From positions 1 to 48,459 of the forward strand of contig BQML01000026.1 in assembly GCA_022180565.1 (NCBI GenBank): 48,459 nt of DNA. Direction: 5' to 3'. The notes under the pieces are model-generated. The model was not told the origin of the DNA, made no database searches, and saw only the letters and a program-made list of their open reading frames with translations. Numbering within the stretch: the stretch's first letter is position 1; each line of letters opens with the position of its first letter. Origin of the DNA: Bacteroidia bacterium. Lineage in GTDB: Bacteria > Bacteroidota > Ignavibacteria > UBA10030. Position numbers and translations under genes: made by a program. Below, piece after piece: positions 1 through 3,944 of this stretch.

Positions 1-225
1 CCAAATCTTACCCGTGAAAAGATATGGAGACCCGGCAATCAGGTAAACATCGTGCGCAGACGAACCCCAAATCCCGTTAGGAGCAATATATAGTCCAAGT
101 TCCGTTCTTGTCCATGAGTACTCTCGCGGTGTCCGCAGTTTGTTCGGGGGAATAACCGGCCCCTTGCACGCACTTACCCACAAGAGCACAACCAACACCA
201 AATCTGCAAGAAGAAGTCTTTTCAT
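1..225 (-). CDS. Lipoprotein with beta-propeller-like start (partial)
   Basis: The N-terminal 75 codons of a gene that runs off the left edge of the window. It starts at ATG 225 and the frame is open to position 1. Residues 1-20 form a lipoprotein signal: MKR, a run of Leu and Val, then the lipobox VSAC with Cys20. The segment GIWGSSAHDVYLIAG at about residues 51-65 resembles the WGSS..DVY blades of repeat-containing surface beta-propeller proteins. It follows the CHAP protein on the same strand after a gap of 58 bases and may be co-transcribed with it. The function is not known; a membrane-anchored surface protein is inferred. Confidence 0.6.
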   Translation of the reverse strand, partial: MKRLLLADLVLVVLLWVSACKGPVIPPNKLRTPREYSWTRTELGLYIAPNGIWGSSAHDVYLIAGSPYLFTGKIW

Positions 226-283: not shown

Positions 284-2040
284 CTATTTCATGAAAATAA
301 GTTTCTTCGTCATGACGACAGGAACTCCGCCCGATGCAGGTACGGCCTTCAACCGAACGACATACGTCCCGCTTGCAAGATCACCCGCGGCATTCCATGA
401 TACGCTGTGGTTTCCCGCTGTCATCCTGCCGGAAAGCAACCTCTCGACAACCCTCCCCTGAAGATCGTACACCTCCATCTCGACTTCAGATTCTTCCGCC
501 AACGTAACGGTCACGAGAGTAGAAGGGTTGAATGGGTTTGGGTGGATTGACACTGAATTCGTGTGGCCTTGGGGCTCGATCAATTCAGCCGTCTCAGCTT
601 TGGGAGCCCCCTGGATCCCCTTCCCGCCTCCTCCTCCGCCCCCGCCACCGCCTTCCCCGTCAGTGCCGAAGACGGAAAACCAGAACGGCGGCGAATACAC
701 ATCACGGACTCCGGGGACCACATATCGAGACCTGACATCATATTCGATAACATATTGTGTATACCCCTCGCTTGCAAAGAATTCCCAGTCGGTATATGAG
801 GTGGCTGTCGAAGGAAGCGTGGCTATCACCATCGGACCATGAAGCTGGTTGACCTTCCGCCAAACCTGGTATCCCGTTACGTAAGGACTCGGGTGCTGAT
901 CCCAGCAAATCTTGATGTTGTTATTGGCTCCGGTGGTCGTGACGTAAATATTGCCGGGCTCAAGAACATACTGGAATTGATAGTTGGCTGTGTATGTCCC
1001 CTGCACGGACGGATGCAGGCTCGTGCTTGTGGACCCCGTTGACCAATTCTGGAATTGGTATTGGACGCGGTTGGCAAGCAATTGTGGGTAAGCCTCCGCG
1101 GTGGCTCCCAAAGGGAACTGATCGGTCGGCGAACGCCTGTCAACGCCGTTCACCTTGATGATGCTCCCAATCGGGACCCCGTCAGAGGAGTTCTGAAAAA
1201 CCACGACGGGACCGGAGTAGCCAGTTATGAACTTTGCCTCATATGTGGCAGACTGGGTAACTATGTCTTGCATCGTATCTGTCGAAGTGAAATGAGCACG
1301 ATTCTTCCACCATCCTTCTTGGGAGTTGAATGTCCACGTTGTGCCATTGACTGTCTGCGGCGACTTGGCCCTTGCTCGAACAACTTCATTAACGCGAAAT
1401 TTGTCTGTGAACGGCGAAACAAAATTCAGGTACGTTCCGGCAGTTGTCCTTCCTACCTCAATTTGTCCGCCGCTGAAGCTGTTCTGAACTGTGATTGTGT
1501 AAGGAAGTGCCTCTTTCCTAACCTTGTAATGTCCTTTCACCACGTCATTGGGCCGCCAGGATTTCAACTGCGCAAGTGTGCTTGTGACCACACCTCCACC
1601 CTCCGAAAGGACCTGTTCCAGTATGACTTGCGAGTCACTGGTGATCGGGTCATCGTCCCTCCAGGTCGCATTAGGCGCCTTGCTGAGAAACCCGTCAGGG
1701 GTGTTGGAGATTTGAATGTCAGCGACGTACGCCGCATGACCGTTGCTCGCGTTCAAATCCTCCACCCTCACGTTTGCCGGGCCCATGATGATAATGTCCC
1801 CAACGTTGAAATTGGTTCCGGCACTGAATGTGAAGAAATTTGAATGAGAATGGATATTGGTTGGAACAGGATAAACCGCCAGCGCCTCCTGACTACTGCA
1901 TCCCCATGCCCTCGCCATCGCATATCCGAAGCAAATGGATGGACTGGTCTGGTGTGGAAACGGCAGAGAACACTGAGCTAGTACTTCCCCCCCCCCCCCG
2001 CGAATGCGAGGAGAGTGAGGATCATGAAAGAGCGTTTCAT
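284..2040 (-). CDS. Secreted CHAP-domain protein with C-terminal sorting domain; frame broken in poly-G tract
   Basis: A multi-domain exported protein. I choose ATG 2040 because GGGAGG lies 6 bases upstream and the next codons give a signal peptide (MKRSF, hydrophobic stretch, poly-Gly, VLAQC). With 13 G at 1987-1999 this frame ends at TAG 1978-1980; 11 or 14 G would join it to the long downstream frame. That frame is open further upstream to an ATG at 2092, but that start gives no signal peptide. After the signal comes a CHAP-like amidase/peptidase domain with Cys (codon 1931-1933, motif SICFGYA) and His (1736-1738, motif NGHAAYV). Then follow beta-rich repeats, a fibronectin-III-like segment (about 670-1000), a poly-Gly linker near 625-660, and a sorting domain of NPFNPST type (about 287-520). 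A peptidoglycan or peptide amidase exported by a type IX-like route is inferred. Confidence 0.72.
1987..1999. repeat. Homopolymer of 13 G (minus strand) in signal-peptide codons
   Basis: Thirteen C on the plus strand, read as G13 in the minus-strand gene. It lies between the start codon at 2040 and the signal-peptide cleavage region. It encodes four Gly in either frame, but only 11 or 14 G keep the SD-preceded start in frame with the CHAP protein. Tracts of this kind slip during replication and act as on/off switches in contingency loci of other bacteria. A sequencing or assembly indel is the main alternative. Confidence 0.9.
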
Positions 2041-2100
2041 GACGCACCTCCCGAATTGTGGATGAATGAATTAGAAGGGGATTCTCCCCCAATCGTTGCG

Positions 2101-2129
2101 AATATTGGAAAATGGCGACTTAATGTCAA
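2101..2129 (-). promoter_or_regulatory. Promoter of the CHAP gene
   Basis: On the minus strand: TTGACA (2129-2124), 17 bp spacer, AATATT (2106-2101). The predicted start near 2094 lies only about two bases from the alternative ATG at 2092, which favours ATG 2040 as the real start. The leader would begin with a small hairpin, GGGGA-TTC-TCCCC on the plus strand (2077-2089). Confidence 0.6.
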
Positions 2130-2253: not shown

Positions 2254-2820
2254 ATGCTTGCACAACGCTACACGGAGGCATGGTTGGAGCGCCCAGAACC
2301 GTTTATCCCCGACGTCGTTCGGCTTGCCCAGGAAGGCGACGTTGCCGCATTTGAGCGGGTGTACCGGGAGCACGAGGGACGCGTGTACGCCCTGTGTCTG
2401 CGACTTGCGTCCGACCGATCGAGAGCCGAAGAGCTCATGCAGGATGTATTTGTGAAAGTCTGGGAGACCATCGATACCTTCCGCGGCGAAAGCGCATTTT
2501 CGTCCTGGCTCCACCGCGTGGCGGTTAATGTGGCCCTGACAAGTTTCCGCTCCGAACGGCGGTACCGTCAGCGTGTGGAGGGTGTCGAAGACCCTGAACT
2601 GCATGATCGAGGATCGGGATTGCCGACCACGGGCGAGTCTCTTGATCTTGAAAAAGCCATCAGCCGTTTGCCGCAGCAGGCCCGGATCATTTTTGTTTTA
2701 CATGATGTTGAAGGATATCGTCACGAGGAGATTGCGTCCCGCCTTGGGGTCACCGTCGGAACGACGAAGGCCCAGCTTCACCGCGCGCGCAGACTCCTTC
2801 GGGAGGTGTTACAACGATGA
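2254..2820 (+). CDS. ECF-family RNA polymerase sigma factor
   Basis: A 188-residue group-4 sigma factor that directs RNA polymerase to a stress or envelope regulon. Region 2 spans about residues 25-92, with the typical RVYALCLRL and AEELMQDVFVKVW segments and the FSSWLHRVAVN stretch. Region 4 spans about 130-185, with LPQQARIIFVLHDVEGY followed by the helix-turn-helix IASRLGVTVGTTKAQLHRAR. It overlaps the anti-sigma gene by four bases (ATGA), so the two are translationally coupled and probably form a pair. ATG 2254 is chosen because region 2 needs nearly all of the length. I found no clear promoter upstream. The targets are unknown; the downstream YceI and RND genes are candidates by position only. 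Confidence 0.93.
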   Translation: MLAQRYTEAWLERPEPFIPDVVRLAQEGDVAAFERVYREHEGRVYALCLRLASDRSRAEELMQDVFVKVWETIDTFRGESAFSSWLHRVAVNVALTSFRSERRYRQRVEGVEDPELHDRGSGLPTTGESLDLEKAISRLPQQARIIFVLHDVEGYRHEEIASRLGVTVGTTKAQLHRARRLLREVLQR

Positions 2821-3944
2821 CAGACCACAGGACTCATCAGATCGATGATTATTTCGACGGAGCGCTGTCGAATGCCGACAGGACAGCAATCGACAATCAT
2901 CTGCGTCTCTGCAAAGCGTGCAGGACGGAGTTTGACCGGATGAAACATTTGCGCGAACAGATCTCGGTCCTTCCCCGGTCGATCAAACCCGAACGGGATC
3001 TCTGGCCCGATGTAAAGAAGCGCATCACGACACGAACCGTCATCCCCCTTTCTTCTGAATCCCGGCGCGAGCCTCTTCGTTTGCCCAGGACGGGTCTTTC
3101 CCGCTCCCTCCGCACCGTGGCCGCCATTGCGGCAACGCTGGCGATCACTGCGGTCGGCGTGTGGTGGTATCTGCAGGATCCGGAAACCGGTTGGAATCTC
3201 GCCGTGCGGGAGGGGACCGCGTGGCTCGGATCGAGGATGATCTCCGGCGAAACGCGCATTTCTGTGGGAGAGACATTGAGAACGGGGAATGCGAGTACGG
3301 CGCTGATCGAGGTCGGACTGATCGGCCATGTCGACGTCGAGGCCAATACCATCATTCGCCTCGTGCGGGCGTCGCTGACAGACCACCGGTTCGCCCTTGA
3401 AAAAGGAACAATCGCCGCGCGGATCTCCGCCCCTCCACGGCTGTTTTTCGTCGAGACCCCGTCGGCCCTCGCAGTCGATCTCGGCTGTGCGTACACGCTC
3501 TCCGTCGATGATTCCGGCAAGGGCCTTCTGCGTGTAAGCTCAGGCTGGGTGGCGCTGGAGTACGATGGACGTTCGTCGGTCGTGCCTGCAGGGGCTGAAT
3601 GCCGAACAAGACCCGGATTCGGGCCCGGAACACCGTACCAGAGTGACGCCTCTGCACGGCTCATCGAAGGGCTGGAGCGCCTTGACTTCGGTGGAGCCAC
3701 CGACGCGCTGGCGGTTGTGCTTGCCGAGGCGAGAAACATGGATTCCATCACACTCTGGCATCTGTTCCTCCGTTCCCGGGGAACGGATCGTGAGAGAATC
3801 TATGACCGTCTTGCCTCGCTCGTGAAGCCTCCGCCCGGCGTAACGCGCGAGGGAATGCTGGCCGGCGACCGGAAAATGACCGAACGGTGGCAGGATCACC
3901 TGAACCTTGGCATGGATTCCTGGTGGAGATCCGTGATCCTGTGA
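2817..3944 (+). CDS. Membrane anti-sigma factor with zinc finger and FecR-like domain
   Basis: A 375-residue regulator that should hold the preceding sigma factor inactive at the inner membrane. The N-terminus carries the zinc-binding anti-sigma motif His28-x3-Cys32-x2-Cys35. One membrane helix lies at about residues 100-119 (TVAAIAATLAITAVGVWWYL). The periplasmic part begins with a FecR-like domain (about 125-255, GTAWLGS and ISVGETLRTG motifs, then valine-rich beta strands). The last 110 residues are helical and unassigned. Start ATG 2817 overlaps the sigma stop codon, and its own stop overlaps the next start. FecR domains normally receive an envelope signal; the signal here is unknown. Confidence 0.88.
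   Translation: MTDHRTHQIDDYFDGALSNADRTAIDNHLRLCKACRTEFDRMKHLREQISVLPRSIKPERDLWPDVKKRITTRTVIPLSSESRREPLRLPRTGLSRSLRTVAAIAATLAITAVGVWWYLQDPETGWNLAVREGTAWLGSRMISGETRISVGETLRTGNASTALIEVGLIGHVDVEANTIIRLVRASLTDHRFALEKGTIAARISAPPRLFFVETPSALAVDLGCAYTLSVDDSGKGLLRVSSGWVALEYDGRSSVVPAGAECRTRPGFGPGTPYQSDASARLIEGLERLDFGGATDALAVVLAEARNMDSITLWHLFLRSRGTDRERIYDRLASLVKPPPGVTREGMLAGDRKMTERWQDHLNLGMDSWWRSVIL

Follow-up and report, generated by a model that had tools for sequence, protein, structure and literature searches.

The window, by which we mean the whole stretch of DNA that was analysed (48,459 nucleotides), is contig 26 of a 3,004,117-base draft genome in 111 contigs. Near its left end, on the minus strand, lies a gene for a putative exported protein whose signal-peptide coding region contains a run of 13 G residues, and an ECF sigma factor gene diverges from it. 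The features of this region are the following.

1..225, minus strand: start of a downstream lipoprotein gene, cut by the contig end; a homologue follows the homologous gene in the relatives G015, G023 and G041
284..1986, minus strand: main part of the exported protein, an open frame of 566 codons following the tract, with a papain/CHAP-like Cys-His N-terminal region and then beta-rich domains
341..547, minus strand: C-terminal T9SS type A sorting domain (TIGR04183, 32.7 bits, cut-off 23; PF13860, 31.9, cut-off 27)
1978..2040, minus strand: reading frame from the ATG with 13 G, 20 amino acids by translation, with its TAG stop at 1978-1980
1987..1999, minus strand: G13 homopolymer in the signal-peptide coding region, the only G/C run of at least 11 in the genome
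2047..2052, minus strand: ribosome-binding site GGGAGG, 6 nt 5' of the ATG, from the sequence
2101..2129, minus strand: promoter-like TTGACA-N17-AATATT, consensus match 10/12
2254..2820, plus strand: divergent neighbour, ECF sigma factor, by profile match
2817-3944: anti-sigma-like zf-HC2 protein, partner of the ECF sigma factor

Inspection of the sequence placed the tract as C13 on the plus strand, that is G13 on the minus strand, at 1987-1999 between the flanks TTCGC and AAGTAC. Read along the minus strand, the promoter-like site is followed by GGGAGG, the ATG (2040-2038), the codons for MKRSFMILTLLAFA, the G13 run, which begins 41 nt from the first base of the ATG, and then AAG TAC TAG, with the TAG at 1980-1978. 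The peptide read with 13 G is MKRSFMILTLLAFAGGGGKY followed by the stop, after 20 residues. The Shine-Dalgarno sequence, start codon, tract and stop codon all lie where the first-pass annotation had put them. A TTGACA promoter at the proper distance had also been proposed; such a site is present, with TTGACA at 2129-2124 and AATATT at 2106-2101 separated by a 17-nt spacer, but 3 sites of this quality were found against 1.8 expected in 2.6 kb, so the promoter is plausible and not significant. Two alternative starts that would make 13 G productive, a TTG at 2092 and a GTG beside the ribosome-binding site, were rejected, as the upstream codons yield no signal peptide and the GTG in addition overlaps the ribosome-binding site.

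An in-silico table of tract lengths showed that 8, 11 and 14 G give in-frame proteins of 583, 584 and 585 amino acids, respectively, whereas 9, 12 or 15 G lead to a stop after 47-49 amino acids and 10, 13 or 16 G to a stop after 19-21. Only with 8, 11 or 14 G is the signal peptide, MKRSFMILTLLAFA-Gly(n)-EVLAQ, in frame, and a hydropathy comparison found it similar to those of the homologues. One additional G brings the 13-G gene into frame. The earlier claim that 13 G ends in a stop and that 11 or 14 G would join a signal peptide to an intact exported protein is thus arithmetically correct, and the table indicates that the tract is placed where changes in its length can turn an intact gene on or off. 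The 566 codons 3' of the tract are uninterrupted, with no second lesion, and codon usage prefers the frame of this ORF over the other five.

The sorting-domain region also scored 26.9 against PF18962 (cut-off 27). The search for T9SS machinery covered SprA, which is encoded in the genome (SprA_N, 199 bits); a signal peptide together with a C-terminal sorting domain is the arrangement of T9SS type A cargo. A ten-glycine run with mixed codons (EGGGGGGGGGGKG) lies at 600-670 of the window, in the linker that leads into the sorting domain, and the aligned homologues are without it. The label of a surface CHAP protein, given on the first reading, fared less evenly. Cys18 in S-[IV]-C-[FWY]-G-Y-A and His83 in [GA]-H-A are invariant in five sequences; Gly-Asp 62-63 and Asn-Ser-Phe 168-170 are likewise invariant, and the order of these residues is that of a CHAP/papain-like domain. 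CHAP (PF05257) gave no Pfam match for the window protein, however, and matched three homologues at E 0.002-0.01 (16.7-18.9 bits), below the gathering cut-off of 26. Because the Pfam match is weak and confined to the homologues, and because the AlphaFold model has a pLDDT below 50 over the N-terminal 257 residues, we regard the CHAP label as no more than a reasonable guess.

Pattern searches of the genome returned a single G/C run of 11 or more, the tract at 1987-1999, together with one run of 10, five of 9 and 31 of 8. Markov models of order 2-5 trained on the window predicted 0.06-0.16 runs of at least 13 in the genome, and the G13 tract is a length outlier there. The runs of 8-10 G elsewhere mostly encode glycine or proline within open frames; unlike them, the G13 run breaks a frame. 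In recognisable genes (those with ROK-type, MRP-type and ArgB-like motifs, for example) the 8-10 G runs are in frame, which speaks against a general homopolymer fault in this assembly. Such an artefact is therefore unsupported, though the count of 13 itself may be wrong.

Full-length homologues were found in 3 of 60 relatives, with 43% identity in G015, 39% in G023 and 36% in G041, and named copies group the lineage with Ignavibacteria/Chlorobi-type MAGs (JALONQ010000012, MHAK01000016 and CAADGV010000009); no homologue was found in viral contigs. The same-genus genome G001, which is 72% complete, has the ECF sigma/anti-sigma pair with no T9SS gene beside it. Absence of the tract from related genomes had been named beforehand as grounds for refuting a switch, and the homologues of G015, G023 and G041 and a fourth, L109, all lack a G tract in their signal peptides, which are intact and in frame; the proteins compared are 27-43% identical and come from other genera, however, and contingency tracts do come and go between species. 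Conservation of the tract among relatives is thereby ruled out. Since sister genomes encode homologues whose signal peptides are intact and free of a tract, the tract appears lineage-specific, and it most likely arose in the source lineage, in a patchily distributed gene. The in-frame signal peptides of the homologues also make it probable that the protein was ancestrally of the ON form.

Long G/C tracts were also found in other genomes. In G021, of a sister genus, a single G13 (C23:224513-224525; L100 3014-3026) lies in a promoter spacer upstream of a signal-peptide protein with a T9SS tail; the promoter-like site reads TTGACA-atctc-G13-TATATT, with an 18-nt spacer, a layout that looks switch-like and resembles promoter-spacer phase variation. 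Within the family, G015 carries a single G13/C13 (C44:46358-46370; L093 6359-6371) in the linker of a response regulator, between the receiver and a LuxR-type HTH; at 13 the two halves are in different frames, and the homologous T9SS gene ends ~1.5 kb before the tract. In G094 (C214; L194), a C11 run stands out of frame in a signal-peptide coding region, in a gene cut by the contig end. Runs of G9 occupy promoter-like spacers in L114 (G004:C56) and L115 (G086:C12); the genes behind these spacers are a radical-SAM-like one and one with a signal peptide. Promoter-like sites of the form TTGAC-N10-G10-T, all with the same 19-nt spacing, were seen in L205, L209 (G276) and L207 (G404); they stand before genes for lipoproteins or small secreted peptides, belong to two further families of this phylum and may form a family of poly-G promoters.

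The order-level survey covered 98 genomes and 50 clean G/C runs of at least 11. There was no excess of these runs just after a Shine-Dalgarno sequence and ATG before an ORF of at least 100 codons (5 of 50, against 6.7% of control positions; p = 0.25), so that across the order tracts are not generally placed at gene starts. Other positions of such runs include convergent intergenic regions, N gaps and contig ends, and several are plainly intergenic or artefactual. Compared with reversed-pattern controls, the promoter-spacer pattern occurred in 3 versus 1 genomes of the order and the SD-ATG-tract pattern in 6 versus 0; at the phylum level with G10, the respective figures were 4 versus 0 and 5 versus 0. 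Among the SD-ATG-tract matches, only those of G000 and G029 look like signal peptides. The excess over the reversed control is suggestive, and a clade-wide habit of poly-G switches is, overall, only suggested.

The layout at the locus is that of a textbook translational on/off repeat switch. In the mechanism that we propose, replication slippage in the G tract would alter its length by single bases. With 8, 11 or 14 G, the T9SS cargo would carry the signal peptide and be delivered to the cell surface; either of the remaining frames would terminate at ~20 or ~48 residues, leaving the cell without the protein. Changes in tract length would add or remove glycines where the hydrophobic core meets the cleavage region, a position at which a difference of one residue should be tolerated. 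We infer that tract length, known here from one assembly per species, varies in the population and that the tract is kept by selection; the sampled cells would have been off if the assembler counted 13 G correctly.

This arrangement resembles several known systems. In Neisseria opa genes, CTCTT repeats lie in the leader-peptide coding region (PMC3960869). In both cases the repeat falls where the signal peptide of a surface protein is encoded, with the frame set by repeat number and two of three states off; opa, however, is a gene family with a pentamer, whereas here a mononucleotide G tract lies in a single gene for a T9SS cargo, in an environmental Ignavibacteria-type bacterium known from one assembly. 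In Campylobacter, runs of at least 7 G/C are treated as phase-variable by PhasomeIt, tracts peak at 9-10 G and strains carry 5-81 phase-variable genes each (PMC6321876). A poly-G run inside an ORF with a frameshift as the off state is common to both, but the present genome has one tract of 13. The homopolymeric tracts of Bordetella, including the bvgS C tract, have length polymorphism demonstrated by genotyping (PMC1891110). They likewise include coding-sequence G/C tracts longer than chance, and bvgS parallels the response-regulator tract of G015; polymorphism is demonstrated there, whereas here there is a single assembly per species. The tracts of G015, G021 and G094 lie in the same kinds of place as those of Neisseria opa/opc (PMC3960869) and Bordetella bvgS (PMC1891110).

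Taken together, we put at about even chances that this is a lineage-specific simple-repeat contingency locus, in which slippage in G13 switches a T9SS cargo. A translational switch fits a tract of outlier length followed by an intact ORF, and the frame table, the intact homologous ORF, the signal peptides of the homologues, the T9SS tail and SprA support the same reading, as do the tracts of G021, G015 and G094 in switch-like places. The phase-variable switch by slippage put forward in the first-pass annotation is thus partly supported, by its anatomy, and it is weakened by the tract-less homologues, by the absence of the gene from this place in G001 and by the lack of order-wide placement at gene starts.

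The main rival to a switch is a homopolymer miscount, in which the long tract is real, its true consensus is 11 or 14, the gene is simply on and the 13 reflects a consensus that the reads or the assembler got wrong by one or two bases. We consider this possible, though on the unlikely side. The gene 3' of the tract is intact and looks constrained, G13 is the hardest place in the genome for any sequencing chemistry, and the genome is a draft in 111 contigs; the shorter runs of 8-10 G in recognisable genes are nevertheless in frame, and even if miscounted, 11-14 G at the coding start would be a candidate hypermutable tract by published criteria (PMC6321876). The second rival is a neutral, recently expanded run of glycine codons that slips and so switches the gene without a selected role, in a lineage that may be losing it. 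In its favour are the homologues without the tract, the patchiness of the gene, full-length in few relatives and missing beside the same neighbours in G001, and the lack of order-wide placement of tracts at gene starts. Against it are the 566 codons free of a second lesion and the fact that the tract is a single genome outlier rather than one of many, and we hold it to be improbable.

Long homopolymers are slippage sites in general, and 13 G needs +1 to restore the frame; RNA polymerase or ribosome slippage on the run could therefore let a gene that always has 13 G make full-length protein as a low, fixed share of its product. The tract is not conserved in the homologues, however, and RNA folding around it is no better than that of shuffled sequence (z -0.65), so that we give this explanation very little credence.

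The literature searched yielded no paper describing phase variation in Ignavibacteria or of a T9SS cargo. Most work on repeat-driven phase variation concerns host-associated pathogens and commensals. A broader proposal, which we rate as doubtful, gives single long poly-G tracts the role of contingency switches in free-living Ignavibacteria-type bacteria. Such tracts would have been positioned independently in a signal peptide, a promoter spacer or a response regulator, and would diversify the T9SS-secreted surface of clonal populations. If the switch at the present locus is real, a poly-G-switched T9SS cargo in an uncultured environmental lineage would extend phase variation to a new group of bacteria and to a new secretion route.
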